A DNA stretch of 64,000 bases. It comes from an uncultured Clostridia bacterium. GTDB lineage: Bacteria; Bacillota; Clostridia; Christensenellales; Aristaeellaceae. The stretch is taken from assembly GCA_946187775.1 (NCBI GenBank), contig CAMHSI010000002.1, positions 18,537 through 82,536 on the forward strand. The letters are read 5' to 3'. Positions 43,480 to 51,026 of this stretch are shown piece by piece. The notes beneath the pieces are model-generated. The model worked only from the letters and a program-made list of their open reading frames with translations, ran no database searches and had not been told where the DNA came from. Numbering within the stretch: position 1 is the first letter of the stretch; every line of letters begins with the position of its first letter. Both the position numbers and the translations under genes were made by a program.

Positions 43480-44427
43480 ATGGATGTGAATATCGGCGCC
43501 TATCTGGCCGTGATGGGAGCCTGCGCGCTTTTCTCCTGCGCCCTCTTCGGCGTTTCCGCCCGGAACCGCCTGGGGTTTTCTTCCCGCAGGGCCCTTTCCC
43601 TGGGCGTTTGCACGCTCCTGCTGGGAACGGTCCTGTGTATTCTCTGCGCGAAGGTGCTCTTTTTCTTCTTCCGCTTTTCCTACCTGACCCGCAACCGGGG
43701 CGGGGAGTTCTGGCTCTCCCTCCGCACGGAGGAGCTCTCCTATTACGGCGGCGTGGCAGGCGTCTCCTTTGCCGTGATGCTGTGCGCCCGGCTGTTCCGC
43801 CTGAATGTCCGGGAAACCCTGAATGCTTTTGCCCCGGCGGGCGCCCTCATGGCCGCCGCCGCGCGCTTCGCGGAATATTTTCTCTATCCCACGGGAACCG
43901 GAGCCACCCTGGACCAGCCGCTCCCCTTCCCCCTGGCCCTCCGCATCGTCTATGATGAGGACTACTCGGAATACGTGCTGGCGGTCTTCATGCTGGAGGG
44001 AATCGTTTCCCTGGTTGTTTTCGTCCTTTCCCTCCTGCGGAAAAAGGAACCGCGCCGGTTCCTCCGTACCCTCGCCTGGCTCTGCATTCCGCAGATCCTG
44101 CTGGAGAGTCTGAGGTCCGACGCGATCAACTGGCTGCTGGTCCATGTGGAGCAGCTGCTCTGCTTCCTGTTTGTGCAGGGGGTCCTGGTCTGGTACGGAT
44201 GGAATGGAAACCGGAAATCCTTCTCCTCCTGGGTTCCCGCCCTGCTGGGGCTGCTGGTCTGCGGGGTGATTATTGCGGGAGAATTTGCCCTGGAAGGCAA
44301 AATCCTCCTGGGCGGCTCCATGATTCCCCGCTGGATCACCTACCTGGTGATGGTCTCCGCCCTGGCGGTCCTTGCCGCCGCGGAGCACCTGGGAAACCGG
44401 AACCTCTCCGCTCACTCCCCGGGATAA
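43480..44427 (+). CDS. Lgt-like (prolipoprotein diacylglyceryl transferase-related) multi-TM protein, divergent
   Basis: Polytopic; EELSYYGGVAG aligns with the Lgt xxLSFHGGLxG region and ARFAEYFL with the GRIGNF region, but key residues differ. Confidence 0.65.
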   Translation: MDVNIGAYLAVMGACALFSCALFGVSARNRLGFSSRRALSLGVCTLLLGTVLCILCAKVLFFFFRFSYLTRNRGGEFWLSLRTEELSYYGGVAGVSFAVMLCARLFRLNVRETLNAFAPAGALMAAAARFAEYFLYPTGTGATLDQPLPFPLALRIVYDEDYSEYVLAVFMLEGIVSLVVFVLSLLRKKEPRRFLRTLAWLCIPQILLESLRSDAINWLLVHVEQLLCFLFVQGVLVWYGWNGNRKSFSSWVPALLGLLVCGVIIAGEFALEGKILLGGSMIPRWITYLVMVSALAVLAAAEHLGNRNLSAHSPG

Positions 44428-45362
44428 GCGCTGGCGAAGTAGATAATGTCGTAAATGGTCCGGTCGTTCACTTCGTTCTGGTTCACCTGATGCTTCTGGA
44501 ATACAACCTGGCCGGAATTTCCCCCGTCCAGCACATAAACCGTCTTGCAGGGCGCGATGCTCATAACCAGGTCCCGCACCTGGGCCAGGTTCAGTCCGTA
44601 CCAGTTGGAAAACACAAGGTAGTGCAGGGGCTCGATCTGGGCGATGGCGATCCGGGCCGCCCAGTTCTGGGGCTGTGCGGTCAGGGGAGAGTGCTTCTCA
44701 TCCAGCACGTATTCATCCGGCACGGGCTCCCCGTCGATCACCAGCGCGGGACCGAACTGGAAAGCGTTGATCACTTTCTTTCCGTCGATCTCCTCCTTGT
44801 TCATTTCCGCAAGCTCCGGACCGCCCTGGCGGATATGGAAATTGCCGTCCTCGTCAATCAGCAGCATGTCCAGGTAATCCACCACCGTGTCCCGGTATAC
44901 AACGCCCTGCCGCAGGCAGTATTTGTTGCCCTCCTGTCCGTAATAGGAATTGCAGAAATCGCCGTCCACCGCCACAACGGCCTGCACCCTCTTGGCGATA
45001 TCCAGCGTCCTTTTCATAATTCCCCGGGTAAAATTGGCCGGATCCCCGGAAGCGGTCCTCAGCTGTGAGGGGTGCTTGATCTTCACATCCACATAGCAGT
45101 AATACACCCCGTGGGTGCCGTTGTCCTGGGGGTTGACCATGTTTTCCCTGAATTCGTGGAATTCCGCCCGGATCGTGGGATCCTCATAGCAGTTCCTGTC
45201 CTTCTTCCAGGAGGCGCCGGCGTCATACTTCATCCCGCCGCTCAGGTCGATGGGCAGCGTATATGTTTCCTCTCCCAGGGCCGCGCCGGCTCCCGCGCAC
45301 AGCAAAGCTGCCGCCGCCGCGCTGATTCCCCTGCGGATCCAGGTGTAAATCCTCTTTTTCAT
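44412..45362 (-). CDS. Secreted phosphodiester glycosidase (NAGPA) domain protein, copy 1
   Basis: Signal peptide; VVAVDGDFCNSYYG, DMLLIDEDGNFHIRQGG, VYVLDGGNSGQVVF typical of NAGPA/exopolysaccharide phosphodiester glycosidases. Confidence 0.85.
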   Translation of the reverse strand: MKKRIYTWIRRGISAAAAALLCAGAGAALGEETYTLPIDLSGGMKYDAGASWKKDRNCYEDPTIRAEFHEFRENMVNPQDNGTHGVYYCYVDVKIKHPSQLRTASGDPANFTRGIMKRTLDIAKRVQAVVAVDGDFCNSYYGQEGNKYCLRQGVVYRDTVVDYLDMLLIDEDGNFHIRQGGPELAEMNKEEIDGKKVINAFQFGPALVIDGEPVPDEYVLDEKHSPLTAQPQNWAARIAIAQIEPLHYLVFSNWYGLNLAQVRDLVMSIAPCKTVYVLDGGNSGQVVFQKHQVNQNEVNDRTIYDIIYFASAYPGE

Positions 45363-45539: not shown

Positions 45540-45646
45540 GAAGTGATGCGGCCGCGTCGGGGATGATTGTTTTTTATACGTCCTTATTGTTCTCCCCCGC
45601 CTCCCGCAGGACAAACGCTCACTGACTTTTCGGAAGGAGAACGAAC

Positions 45647-48600
45647 ATGAGCAATACGGATATTCTGCAGGTCGCCTCCCGCCTGGAGGAGGATCGGCGT
45701 TTTCCCGTCCTGTTTGATATTCTGCGGGACTATGGAGACACGCCGGCTGCCGTCTGGCTGAAAGGGGACAAGGAGCTTTCCCTTTCCTTCGCGGAAATGA
45801 CCCGCCGCGCCGATGACTACGCCGCCTACCTGAAGGAGAACACTCCGGAGGGCGGCTGGATCGCCATCGCTGTGGACACCTGCCCCAACTGGCAGTCCCT
45901 GTTCTGGGGCGTCATCCGCTCCGGCCACAATGCCCTGCTGCTGGATGCTTCCGCGGCGGACAGCATGGTCCAGGGCCTCCTGGAGGAGGCCGGCTGCAAG
46001 GTCATTATCTCCCGCAAACCCCGGGGCCTTACCGGTGACATTCACCAGCTTGATTACCGCGCCGTGGCGGACGCGCCCCGCACCATCGGCTTCACCCCCG
46101 TCTGGGGCGAGTATGTCGCCATGTGCACCAGCGGCACCACCGGCCGCAGCCGCATCTTTGCCTATTCCGGCGCCGCCGTGTGCGAGCAGGCCCTCGCCAC
46201 CGTCCAGATCCACCGGGAAAACAAGCGCATCATCCGGGAGGATAACCGCGGCCGCCGGGCCCTGGCCTTCCTGCCCTTCCATCACGTGCTCGGCTTCATG
46301 GCCAATGTGATCCTTGTTCCCTTCTGCGGTGCCACCAACATCTACCTGCCGGACCGCACCCCCAATTCCATCATCAACGTCTGCCGCCACTTCCCGCCCC
46401 ACCTGCTGATCGTGGTGCCGCTGGTAGGCAACAACCTGGTCAAATCCCTGAAGAAAAACGTCCGGAAGGAAAAGCCCGTCCGCCGCTGGCTGTTCAGGGC
46501 CTCCTCCGCGCTTTCCCTGGGAGCCCAGTATATTTCTCCCTCCTTCGGTCTCCGCCTGGCGGAAAAGCGGCTCTTCGCCGCCATTGACTCGAAGCTCCTG
46601 GGAACCGAGGTGGACGTGGTCATCCTCGGCGGAAGCCATACGCCCCAGGAAACCCTGCGTTCCCTGAACGCCCTGGGATACTATACCGTCAACGGCTTCG
46701 GCATGACCGAAACCGCCATCGACGGCTTTGAAACCTCCCTCAGCCTGCGCCGGCGGCTGAACGGCTCCGTGGGCGCCTCCCTGGGTTCCGCCGAATACCG
46801 CATCGCCGGTGAAGGCGGCAGCGATACCGGGGAGCTGCAGATCCGGGGCGCCGGCATCCATTCCGGCCGGGTGGTCCGGGGCGAGGTGCTTCCCCCCGAC
46901 ACGCTGGACGGCGGCTGGTTCCCCACCGGGGACGTGGCCCGCATGGATTCCGACGGCCGCGTCTTCATCAAGGGCCGCCTGAAGGACGTGATCATCAACG
47001 AATCCGGGGAAAACGTCTATCCGGACGACCTGGAGGATTCCTTCTCCGCCCTCCCCGGCGTGGAGCAGCTCTGCGTCGTGGGCTTCCCCCGCAACAAGCG
47101 GGACAATAACGAGGACGTGGTCCTTGTTTTGAATGTGGGCGACAATTACACCGATAAGAATTACCTCAACACCCTGGCCGGCAAGGTGGCCGCCGTCAAT
47201 TCCCGCCTGCCCCTCTACGCCCAGCTGGACCGCACCCTGGTCACTCCCATGTCCCTTCCCCTGGTCAGCGGCATCAAGGTCAAGCGGATCGAGCTGAAGC
47301 GCCTTTATGAGGAAAAGGAACTGATCTACAAGGAGCTGGACCTCCGGGCCCAGAGCGCCGGGGCGGAGGTGGCCGTTTCCGAAAAGGCCCGCGCCAAGTC
47401 CGCCGTGCAGGATGAAATCCGCCGCAAGGTGCGGACCATGTACGCGGAAGCCCTGGATATCCCGGAGAAGGAAATCTCCGACAACGCCAATTTCATCGAG
47501 GACCTCCAGGGAGACAGCCTCCAGGTGCTGAGCATCGCCCTCAAGGCGGAGGAGGAATGGGGCATCACCATCCCCGCCGAGGAATACGGCCAGTGTGCCA
47601 CGGTGGAAAGCATGTCCCGGGTGGTTGAAAACCTGCTCAACGGCGGCTCCGATGCCGGCAAGCCCCGGGAACGCGTTCCCGTCCGGCCCATCACCCGTTT
47701 TGAGGACACCCCCGAATACCAGCATTTCCTCGAGCGGCAGAAGGCCCTCGTGGGCAACGGCGACAATCCCTACTTCGTCGCCCATGAGTCTCCCCTGCTG
47801 GATACCGGCATCGTGGACGGAAAGGAAATCCTTGAGTTCGGAAGCTACAACTACGTGGGCATGAGCGGACGCAAGGAGGTAAAAGAAGCCGCCAAGGCCG
47901 CCATCGACAAGTACGGCACCAGCGCCAGCGGCAGCCGCCTGCTGGCCGGCGAAAAACTGATCCATAAGGAGCTGGAAAAGGAGCTGGCGGACTGGAAGCA
48001 TACCGAGGACGCCATCGTCTGCGTCGGCGGTCACTCCACCAACGTCACCTTCGTGGGCAACTTCTGCGGGAAGAACGACCTGATCCTCTACGATGCCCTG
48101 GCCCACAATTCCATCGAGCAGGGCTGCAAGCTTTCCGACGCCACCTCCCGGCCCTTCCCCCACAGCGATGTGGCGGCCCTGGAAACCATCCTGAAAAGCC
48201 AGCGGGCCTATTATGAGAAGGTGCTCATCGTCATCGAAGGCGCTTACAGCATGGACGGCGATATCGCCCCCGTTCCCGACTTTGTCCGCGTCAAGAAGGA
48301 ATACGGCTGCTTCCTCATGGTGGATGAGGCCCACAGTGCCTGCGTCATCGGCGAGCACGGCGGCGGCGTGGATGAGTATTTCCACCTCGACGGAAACGAT
48401 ATTGATATCAAGTACGGAACCCTGTCCAAGGGACTGGGAACCTGCGGCGGTTACCTGGCCGGCAAAAAGTGCCTGATCGATTACCTGCGCTACAACCTGC
48501 CCGGTTTCGTCTTCTCCGTGGGTATTTCCCCGGCCCTGGCCGCCGGCTCCCTGGCCGCCATCCGCACCCTGCGCAGCCACCCCGAAATCATGGAGCACCT

Positions 48601-48916
48601 GCGCACCGCCATCCGCTCCTTCACGGAGAGCGCAAAGCGCCGCCACCTGGACATCTGCCTGGCGGGCGAAACCGCCGTGCTGCCCGTGCTGGTCGGCAAG
48701 GATGAGGATGCCTGGCTTCTCTCCAACGAGCTGAAAAAGCGGGGCGTCAGCGTGCCCCCGGCCATGTATCCCGCCGTTCCCAAGGGCAAGGCCCGCCTCC
48801 GCTTCTGCGTCATCAGCGAGCACAAGCCCGAGCAGATCGAGCGCGCCCTGGATATCCTGGAAAGTACCGCCGCGGAATTCGGCATTGAACTGCCGCGCCG
48901 CAGCTATGATTCGTGA
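45647..48916 (+). CDS. Trifunctional fusion: acyl-AMP ligase, acyl carrier protein, PLP-dependent alpha-oxoamine synthase
   Basis: Ligase motifs (CTSGTTGRSRIFAYSG, NGFGMTETAIDGFE, GRLKDVIINESGENVYPDDLE); ACP motif DLQGDSLQ (Ser624); AONS motifs (FGSYNYVGMSG, GTSASGSRLLAGE, VDEAHSACVIGEHG, KYGTLSKGLG with Lys928). Confidence 0.93.
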   Translation: MSNTDILQVASRLEEDRRFPVLFDILRDYGDTPAAVWLKGDKELSLSFAEMTRRADDYAAYLKENTPEGGWIAIAVDTCPNWQSLFWGVIRSGHNALLLDASAADSMVQGLLEEAGCKVIISRKPRGLTGDIHQLDYRAVADAPRTIGFTPVWGEYVAMCTSGTTGRSRIFAYSGAAVCEQALATVQIHRENKRIIREDNRGRRALAFLPFHHVLGFMANVILVPFCGATNIYLPDRTPNSIINVCRHFPPHLLIVVPLVGNNLVKSLKKNVRKEKPVRRWLFRASSALSLGAQYISPSFGLRLAEKRLFAAIDSKLLGTEVDVVILGGSHTPQETLRSLNALGYYTVNGFGMTETAIDGFETSLSLRRRLNGSVGASLGSAEYRIAGEGGSDTGELQIRGAGIHSGRVVRGEVLPPDTLDGGWFPTGDVARMDSDGRVFIKGRLKDVIINESGENVYPDDLEDSFSALPGVEQLCVVGFPRNKRDNNEDVVLVLNVGDNYTDKNYLNTLAGKVAAVNSRLPLYAQLDRTLVTPMSLPLVSGIKVKRIELKRLYEEKELIYKELDLRAQSAGAEVAVSEKARAKSAVQDEIRRKVRTMYAEALDIPEKEISDNANFIEDLQGDSLQVLSIALKAEEEWGITIPAEEYGQCATVESMSRVVENLLNGGSDAGKPRERVPVRPITRFEDTPEYQHFLERQKALVGNGDNPYFVAHESPLLDTGIVDGKEILEFGSYNYVGMSGRKEVKEAAKAAIDKYGTSASGSRLLAGEKLIHKELEKELADWKHTEDAIVCVGGHSTNVTFVGNFCGKNDLILYDALAHNSIEQGCKLSDATSRPFPHSDVAALETILKSQRAYYEKVLIVIEGAYSMDGDIAPVPDFVRVKKEYGCFLMVDEAHSACVIGEHGGGVDEYFHLDGNDIDIKYGTLSKGLGTCGGYLAGKKCLIDYLRYNLPGFVFSVGISPALAAGSLAAIRTLRSHPEIMEHLRTAIRSFTESAKRRHLDICLAGETAVLPVLVGKDEDAWLLSNELKKRGVSVPPAMYPAVPKGKARLRFCVISEHKPEQIERALDILESTAAEFGIELPRRSYDS

Positions 48917-49130: not shown

Positions 49131-49162
49131 AAACCTGCGTCAGAAAAAGGCGCAGGTTTTTT
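49131..49162 (+). terminator. Intrinsic terminator after the fusion gene/small protein
   Basis: AAACCTGCG / CGCAGGTTT stem followed by TTT. Confidence 0.75.
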
Positions 49163-51026
49163 ACTGCGCCTTTTCCTGTTTCTGTTTTTCAAGCCACACC
49201 GTCAGCACCGCCACATCCGCGGGATTGACCCCGGGAATGCGTCCCGCCGCCCCCAGGGACACGGGCTTCTGCCGGGCCAGCTTCTGCCGGGCCTCCAGCC
49301 GAAGGTGCTCAATCTGTTCGTAGGGAATATCCTCCGGAAGCCGGGTCTCCTCCGCCCTCCGCGCCTGCTCAATCATCCGCGCCTGCTTTTCCAGGTACCC
49401 CGCGTACTTTACGGCGATTTCCGTCTGCTCCGCCGCCGCCGGGGAAATCTCCTGCCATTCCGGATGCAGCGCCCGAAGGTCCTCAAAGGCTATCTGGGGC
49501 CGCCGCAGCAGCTCCTCCGCCGTCAGGGATCCCGCCGTTTCCGGCTGTCCCTTCTCCCGCAGCAGGCTGTTCAGCTTTTCTCCCGGGGCAAACCGGGTGG
49601 TCCGCAGCTCCCGCTCCAGCCTCTCCGATTCCTCCCGTTTCTTCCGGGTCCGTTCCATCCGTTCCTCCGTGGCCAGCCCGGCCCGGAAGCCGATCTCCGT
49701 CAGCCGCAGGTCCGCGTTGTCCTGCCGCAGGTACAGCCGGTGCTCCGCCCTGGAGGTCATCATCCGGTAGGGCTCGTCCGTCCCCTTGGTGGTCAGGTCG
49801 TCCGTCAGCACCCCGATATAGGCCATGTCCCGGGTCAGCAGCACCTGCTCCCTCCCCTGGATCCGCAGGGCGGCGTTCATGCCGGCCAGGAGGCCCTGCG
49901 CCGCCGCTTCCTCATATCCGCTGGTACCGTTGATCTGTCCGGCGAAAAACAGCCCGCCGATCCGCAGGCTCTCCAGCGTCGGCCGCAGCTCCAGGCTGTC
50001 GATGCAGTCATATTCGATGGCGTATCCCAGCCGGGTAAACTCGCACCGGCGCAGCCCGGGAATCGTCCGGTACATGGCCCACTGCACGTCCTCGGGCATG
50101 GAGGTGGACATTCCCTGCACATACCATTCCCGGCTTTCCTTTCCCTCCGGCTCAAGGAAAATCTGGTGCCGGTCCTTGTCCGCGAAGCGCACAACCTTGT
50201 CCTCGATGCTCGGGCAGTACCTGGGGCCGATGCCGTGAATCTTCCCGCTGTAGAGGGGCGCCCTGTCCAGGTTGTCCAGGATGATCCGGTGGGTTTCCGG
50301 CGTGGTCCACGTCAGGTAACAGCTGTAGGTGTTTTCCAGCTTCCGGTCCGTCAGGAAGGAGAAGGGAACCACCGGTTCGTCCCCCTTCTGCTCCTGCATC
50401 TCGTCAAAATCGACGGAGCGCACGTCCACCCGGGCCGGCGTTCCCGTTTTGAATCTCCGCAGGGCAAACCCAAGCTCCGCAAGGCTGCCTGAAAGCGCTC
50501 CCGCGTTCATCAGCCCCTGGGGCCCTCCGTCCTGCCGGTGTTCCCCGATAATGATGCTCCCCTTCAGGTACACGCCGGTGCAGACCACCGCGGCGCGGCA
50601 GGGAATCCGGGCGCCGGTCACGGTGGTCACAGCGGTCACTTTGTTGTTTTCCGTTTCAATGGAGGCGGCCTCCCCCTGGCGCACCGTCAGGTTCGGGCAG
50701 GTCATCAGCGCCTTCCGCATCCTGTTCTGGTAAGCCTGCTTGTCCGCCTGGGCCCGCAGGGAGTGCACCGCCGGTCCCTTTCCCATGTTCAGCATCCGGC
50801 TCTGGAGAAAGGTATCGTCGATGGCCAGTCCCATCTCACCGCCCAGGGCGTCCACCTCGCGCACCAGGTGGCCCTTGGCGGATCCTCCGATCACCGGGTT
50901 GCAGGCCATCAGCGCCACGCCGTCCATGTTCAGGGTCAGCAGCAGCGTGTCTATGCCCATCCGCGCGGCGGCCAGGGCGGCCTCGCATCCCGCGTGTCCC
51001 GCGCCGATTACAATCAGGTCAGCCAT
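49161..51026 (-). CDS. mnmG: tRNA uridine-5-carboxymethylaminomethyl(34) synthesis enzyme MnmG
   Basis: IVIGAGHAGCEAALAAARMG, CNPVIGGSAKGHLVREVDALGG, GTPARVD, AGQINGTSGYEEAAAQGL. Confidence 0.97.
   Translation of the reverse strand: MADLIVIGAGHAGCEAALAAARMGIDTLLLTLNMDGVALMACNPVIGGSAKGHLVREVDALGGEMGLAIDDTFLQSRMLNMGKGPAVHSLRAQADKQAYQNRMRKALMTCPNLTVRQGEAASIETENNKVTAVTTVTGARIPCRAAVVCTGVYLKGSIIIGEHRQDGGPQGLMNAGALSGSLAELGFALRRFKTGTPARVDVRSVDFDEMQEQKGDEPVVPFSFLTDRKLENTYSCYLTWTTPETHRIILDNLDRAPLYSGKIHGIGPRYCPSIEDKVVRFADKDRHQIFLEPEGKESREWYVQGMSTSMPEDVQWAMYRTIPGLRRCEFTRLGYAIEYDCIDSLELRPTLESLRIGGLFFAGQINGTSGYEEAAAQGLLAGMNAALRIQGREQVLLTRDMAYIGVLTDDLTTKGTDEPYRMMTSRAEHRLYLRQDNADLRLTEIGFRAGLATEERMERTRKKREESERLERELRTTRFAPGEKLNSLLREKGQPETAGSLTAEELLRRPQIAFEDLRALHPEWQEISPAAAEQTEIAVKYAGYLEKQARMIEQARRAEETRLPEDIPYEQIEHLRLEARQKLARQKPVSLGAAGRIPGVNPADVAVLTVWLEKQKQEKAQ

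Follow-up and report, generated by a model that had tools for sequence, protein, structure and literature searches.

A ligase, a carrier and an alpha-oxoamine synthase fused in one chain: a probable self-loading SPT-like enzyme of gut Clostridia

A single gene, in an uncultured Clostridia bacterium, encodes an acyl-AMP ligase, an acyl carrier and an alpha-oxoamine synthase in one polypeptide. We consider that this fusion is probably a self-loading SPT-like enzyme, making a 3-ketosphinganine-type product that a separate KdsR-like dehydrogenase reduces, with the resulting base entering an envelope lipid. Gut sphingolipids have been studied almost solely in Bacteroidetes since producers are recognised via the classical SPT gene. 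The fusion would function in the manner of an SPT that provides its own acyl groups; by their own membership tests, it falls outside the classical SPT families. If our reading is true, many rumen and gut Clostridia would be new sphingoid-base producers, relying on one enzyme that is fed directly by free fatty acids, and marker-gene surveys based on classical SPT would miss them. Our data suggest that there are overlooked sphingolipid-like producers among gut Clostridia.

The fusion gene lies at positions 45647..48916, on the plus strand, of the window (the whole 64,000-nucleotide stretch analysed). It is one open reading frame, beginning with ATG and encoding 1089 amino acids plus stop. A likely ribosome-binding site, GGAAGGAG, was read directly from the DNA 7 bases 5' of the ATG (45632..45639, plus strand). 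The gene is solitary and flanked by two minus-strand genes. Downstream is mnmG (49161-51026), named from its translation. The upstream neighbour (44412-45362) is divergent and resembles, by eye, a phosphodiester-glycosidase-family protein.

All three domains are encoded on the plus strand. Residues 1-560 (45647..47326) form an acyl-AMP ligase of the ANL superfamily, with a Pfam AMP-binding match at residues 27-407 (E 6e-34). The ligase motifs are TSGTTG (residues 161-166), GMTE ending at E355, and TGD with D429; Lys544, within IKVKR, is the putative catalytic lysine. A predicted model of this domain has a pLDDT of 89. Its Foldseek matches are ANL enzymes throughout, indicating a general ANL fold with no hint of the acyl substrate. 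The acyl/peptidyl carrier domain spans residues 594-659 (47426..47623), as does the Pfam PP-binding match (E 9e-11). Its phosphopantetheine serine, Ser624, is encoded at 47516-47518 within GDSLQ. The SPT-like synthase domain covers residues 681-1089 (47687..48913), assigned from Pfam, alignment, tree and conservation. The Pfam Aminotran_1_2 match extends from residue 727 to 1070 (E 7e-44) and the PLP lysine, Lys928, is encoded at 48428-48430 within GTLSKGLG. Ser927 precedes it, and the stacking His820, the Asp893/His896 pair and the substrate Arg1052 are all present, placing the domain in the alpha-oxoamine synthase family (PLP fold type I). The predicted structure of the full-length monomer consists of three folded parts, with low-confidence linkers between them at residues ~578-584 and ~667-673. 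Note that the pTM of this model is 0.51, and our claims about relations between domains are not based on it.

The fusion is well conserved. Counting the window's own genome, 28 of 37 genomes in the genus have it at full length, with the frame open and aligned end to end, and the window's protein is 68-93% identical to the others. A further seven encode a standalone synthase only (63-64% identity to residues ~677-1084); the remaining two, both incomplete, have neither. Given open full-length frames in so many genomes of the genus, as well as in other genera and phyla, the fusion is far beyond chance. We aligned the window's protein with 26 relatives from several phyla. Invariant in 27/27 are T161, G163, E355, D429, R444 and K544 of the ligase, S624 of the carrier, and H820, D893, H896, S927, K928 and R1052 of the synthase. 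Positions S162 and T165 have one substitution each. Mean identity to the window's protein is 72% for the synthase, 51% for the carrier, 45% for the ligase and ~26% for the linkers. Judged from these sequences, the pattern is that of a presumably working three-domain enzyme in which condensation would be the most constrained step. The preliminary description of this DNA had reported the reading frame and the three domains, with Ser624 in DSLQ and Lys928 in GTLSKGLG; both prove correct. It had also proposed searching other genomes for the fusion and its neighbours. Scanning a genome collection returned 80 named loci, mainly from rumen and gut Clostridia, and fusions occur in at least three families across the order. 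Other carriers are two Treponema, three Planctomycetota, one Burkholderiales and several MAGs labelled Bacteroidales or Bacteroidia. Most of the 80 loci have ligase, carrier and synthase in a single chain; some have carrier and synthase, or synthase only. Separately, a search of phage-labelled records found only KBL/BioF-type synthases and no fusion.

Four of the Bacteroidales/Bacteroidia-labelled fusions (L080, L081, L089 and L103; three from horse faeces) group beside the clade of the window's protein. This grouping suggests horizontal transfer, though mis-binning, from which MAG labels such as Bacteroidales can stem, is possible. No SPT above the curated cut-off was found in these genomes.

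We placed the synthase domain by maximum-likelihood phylogeny. Synthase domains of the fusion family form one clade (support 100/97). This is sister to, not nested within, the RkpG/SgaB-type synthases (100/99 for both together). In the same tree, made without CqsA/LqsA, the fusion-family synthase is apart from the SPTs of the CFB group and E. coli B, and from KBL, BioF and ALAS. Consistent with the tree, the domain is not a classical SPT: it scored 288, 269 and 228 bits with models NF047600, NF047599 and NF047603, against cut-offs of 640, 500 and 670, whereas true CFB SPT references scored 684 and 646 bits. Equivalog cut-offs for KBL, BioF and ALAS were missed too. The sister synthases are 42-48% identical to that of the fusion and are also partnered with a dehydrogenase. 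They differ in being fed by an iterative type I PKS, while the window's synthase is fused to a ligase and a carrier. RkpG/SgaB-type genes adjoin type I PKS genes, several of them along with dehydrogenase and capsule genes (S. meliloti, Shinella, Pseudomonas), and no PKS is among the gene neighbours listed for fusion loci. For the Pseudomonas plasmid locus (L211), gene order appears to be that implied by the locus numbers and named genes in PMC12134224. In P. fluorescens MYb115, SgaB condenses acyl-CoA with L-serine and hardly accepts alanine or glycine; the cluster to which it belongs yields sphinganines (PMC12134224). The sister group therefore holds a proven SPT, making this the closest functional anchor for the fusion, though not one from the classical branch.

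Neighbour clustering, over the 80 loci, picked out a single outstanding family: a short-chain dehydrogenase. Its gene is within 450 bp of the fusion, or of a standalone synthase, in 30 of the 80 loci, and on the same strand in 28. Several dehydrogenase and synthase gene pairs overlap by 4 bases. Linked examples come from Clostridia, Clostridium sp. N3C, Treponema, Oscillospiraceae and Tissierellia. In the genus of the window, the dehydrogenase gene is not linked to the fusion, yet it is encoded elsewhere in the window's own genome (locus L171, G000:C68:7630-8475, minus strand), and its product shares 58% identity with the linked one. Among NCBIfam models, NF049977 (3-ketodihydrosphingosine reductase) matches the dehydrogenase best in all three taxa scanned, this genome among them. 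Scores were 215, 236 and 328 bits, below the curated cut-off of 400. A secreted NAGPA-family (phosphodiester-glycosidase) gene, at L171:6575-7627, overlaps and follows the KdsR-like gene in the window's genus. By eye, the gene divergent from the fusion, at 44412-45362, apparently belongs to the same family.

Synthase and dehydrogenase also occur together when unlinked. Across 28 genomes searched with NF049977 at E<=1e-40, 20 of the 22 that have the synthase gave a match, and none of the six relatives that lack it did. In several carrier genomes the match is the gene adjoining the synthase; two Planctomycetota carriers had no KdsR-type match in this search. Within the GTDB family of the window, an ortholog of the dehydrogenase is present in 29/29 genomes with the synthase, compared to 1/12 complete genomes without it, and in two incomplete genomes where no synthase was detected. 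The Fisher p value for co-occurrence is ~4e-9, uncorrected for shared ancestry. In genus g29, one genome lacks both genes and four others have both. As a control, we used an unrelated dehydrogenase from the same window, found in 13 of 21 genomes with the synthase and 6 of 12 without. Since this control shows no link, general gene content does not account for the association of synthase and dehydrogenase. Independent support for the same link comes from distant lineages in which the two genes are repeatedly neighbours. An experimentally shown 3-ketosphinganine reductase, BT_0972 of Bacteroides (PMC9278070), is, we assume, a member of NF049977, the closest curated family to the partner dehydrogenase, which nonetheless falls below its cut-off. 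The Bacteroides arrangement is different. There, the BT_0972 gene is not clustered with that of SPT, and the SPT is a standalone enzyme of the classical kind.

The fusion can also be compared with a known three-protein system. In Caulobacter, 3-oxo-sphinganine is made via AasR, AcpR and SPT, a route in which free fatty acids reach sphingolipids through a synthetase and a carrier dedicated to this purpose (PMC9386255). The fusion has the same three activities in sequence, as in Caulobacter and E. coli B, and is predicted to act on a free fatty acid and serine. Acyl-ACP synthetase, ACP and synthase are on a single chain with motifs intact, and acyl transfer between them is predicted. By analogy, the best reading of the fusion would be a single-chain counterpart of AasR/AcpR/SPT. 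There are differences. AasR, AcpR and SPT are separate proteins, their SPT is of the classical branch (E. coli B, in our tree), and the reductase in such genomes is the epimerase-type CerR rather than KdsR. Nor is the ligase close kin of E. coli AasR: identity between the E. coli B protein and the ligase of the fusion is 27% over 165 residues. It is nearer to ligase-carrier didomain proteins, lacking a synthase, from the same order (37%).

The preliminary description left room for the fusion having been characterised already. In a literature search of partial coverage, no paper turned up on what the fusion makes, on its pairing with a KdsR-like enzyme or on its occurrence across Clostridia. 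Similarly, in the literature covered, no sphingolipid is reported from carrier bacteria. What is already known is the bare A-CP-AOS domain order, recorded in 2013 as being of unknown function, for Microscilla marina A1ZVW4 and Blastopirellula marina A3ZWL3 (PMC3870968). The same work describes Synechococcus B1XHP8 as an AMP-binding enzyme with an AONS-type domain. From their shared domain order, the A-CP-PLP2 proteins of PMC3870968 are probably members of the fusion family, or near it. They were covered by bioinformatic listing or modelling and annotated as AOS, with no product, partner reductase, function or Clostridia given.

From what was observed (the domains and their catalytic residues, the family placement, and the linkage to and co-occurrence with the dehydrogenase), we infer the substrates, products, final lipid and physiological role as follows. 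The ligase domain would use ATP to turn a free carboxylic acid, in all likelihood a fatty acid, into acyl-AMP. The acyl group would then be loaded, as acyl-S-ACP, onto the phosphopantetheine attached to Ser624 in the carrier domain of the same chain. Next, the PLP domain, using Lys928, would carry out a decarboxylative condensation of this thioester with an amino acid, L-serine being the likeliest. The predicted product is a 3-ketosphinganine-type amino ketone. The KdsR-like dehydrogenase (L171) may reduce the ketone to a sphinganine-type base, which would enter an envelope lipid. The fusion family thereby appears to combine a synthase of SgaB lineage and a reductase of Bacteroides type with a ligase that was recruited separately. 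A search of 11 carrier genomes with E. coli YghO, run without a positive control, returned no homologue of YghO-type ceramide synthase. The suggestion that this protein is a self-contained assembly line for an alpha-amino ketone (a sphingoid-like precursor, for example) is supported as the best reading of the sequence. It is strengthened by the adjacent or co-occurring 3-ketosphinganine-reductase-like dehydrogenase, and by the sister relation to SgaB/RkpG. The wider proposal is that many Clostridia of gut and rumen, and a scattering of Treponema, Planctomycetota, Burkholderiales and Bacteroidales, form sphingoid bases from free fatty acids by a hybrid route so far unrecognised, in which a single-chain, self-loading SPT of SgaB lineage works together with a Bacteroides-type ketosphinganine reductase. 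For this, we judge the chances to be evenly balanced. If true, dedicated channelling of acyl groups to SPT becomes testable with all parts in a single chain, and the fusion offers a compact enzyme for producing amino-alcohol lipids.

Other readings were weighed against a self-loading SPT-like enzyme. Alpha-oxoamine synthases, as a class, use glycine (KBL, ALAS), alanine (BioF), cysteate (CFAT) or serine. The chemistry and lipid class could be as we propose while the amino acid is not serine: glycine, alanine or some other one would yield 1-deoxy-type or different amino-alcohol lipids in place of true sphingoid bases. That no equivalog model passes its cut-off, and that the synthase clade is a branch of its own, count in favour of this. 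Conversely, SgaB, from the sister group, is almost exclusive for L-serine (PMC12134224), and the partner reductase is nearest to the 3-ketodihydrosphingosine reductase model. Ser927, invariant in all 27 aligned fusions, corresponds to SPT Ser242, modelled in contact with the serine hydroxyl (PMC3870968). The equivalent residue is Gly or Ala in the aligned E. coli KBL, E. coli BioF and ALAS. However, a KBL/BioF-type enzyme of Thermus likewise has Ser before the PLP lysine, so Ser927 alone is no proof of serine use. Overall, we regard a different amino acid as unlikely. The least credible reading, and a very improbable one, is that the protein is a central-metabolism BioF or KBL to which the other domains are fused as decoration. 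While BioF gives the highest NCBIfam score of the synthase (336 bits, cut-off 426), BioF and KBL are separate branches of the tree, and the dedicated ligase, carrier and KdsR-like partner would be left unexplained.

The fate of the product raises two further alternatives to a membrane sphingolipid. The amino-alcohol lipid might anchor or carry a surface polysaccharide, as proposed for RkpG/RkpH in the rhizobial capsule. The sister synthases do sit in capsule clusters, beside PKS and dehydrogenase genes, and both the KdsR-like gene and the fusion have a glycosidase-family neighbour (the latter by eye) in the window's genus. Against this, no capsule genes adjoin the fusion in the loci inspected, and NAGPA-type genes may simply be frequent in the genus. 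Moreover, RkpH and SgaC are not of the same dehydrogenase type as the partner; the KdsR model is absent from their best 25 families and they belong to another SDR subfamily. We therefore hold a polysaccharide anchor to be improbable. Even less probable is a secondary-metabolite or signalling synthase, whose ligase would accept an aryl or medium-chain acid, leading to a diffusible aminoketone, as with CqsA/LqsA. Foldseek matches of the ligase include aryl-acid adenylating enzymes, at an uninformative 16-22% identity, and one Burkholderiales locus (L146, below) has the look of a biosynthetic cluster. Conversely, the fusion is near-universal and vertically kept in its genus, without a conserved cluster, and its recurrent partner is KdsR-like. 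The synthase is not a CqsA: it scored 157 bits with the CqsA-type model (cut-off 428), and CAI-1 synthases are only among its weaker PDB matches. Hence, a signalling molecule, which the preliminary description offered as an alternative product, found no support here.

Variants of the architecture were also apparent. Standalone synthases (L064, L065, L023-L029, L112, L115 and L125) are nested within the fused clade in the tree, and their species appear, on this basis, to have lost ligase and carrier secondarily. Same-genus genomes with a standalone synthase have no close ligase-carrier homologue, so the acyl donor must have changed. It follows, from species that keep the synthase without ligase and ACP, that self-loading can be dispensed with in some cases. 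Ligase-free didomain proteins of carrier and synthase are encoded at L132, L135 and L066 (G462). At L132 and L135, a CDP-alcohol phosphatidyltransferase gene is directly upstream; this is a candidate head-group enzyme. G056 encodes ligase-carrier didomain proteins without a synthase (L032:10129-12135 and L033:9859-11892; 34-37% identity). The same genome encodes a separate SPT-like synthase (L034, 547 bits with the CFB SPT model). Two full-length fusions from the same order as the window, L062:1495-4662 (G263) and L063 (G198), have near-identical match statistics. In the synthase domain of L062, the PLP lysine is gone (GSLCGAFG in place of GTLSKGLG), as is the HNS motif. Ligase and carrier are apparently intact, and a KdsR-like gene is still present. 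To judge from these residues, the L062-type protein is a probable pseudoenzyme, possibly with a new role. Finally, in the Burkholderiales MAG (L146:7961-17546), the fusion is followed by genes for a desaturase-like protein, a carrier protein, a CMAS-type methyltransferase, a fatty acid desaturase, an amidohydrolase and a second AMP ligase. The region looks like a dedicated lipid gene cluster.
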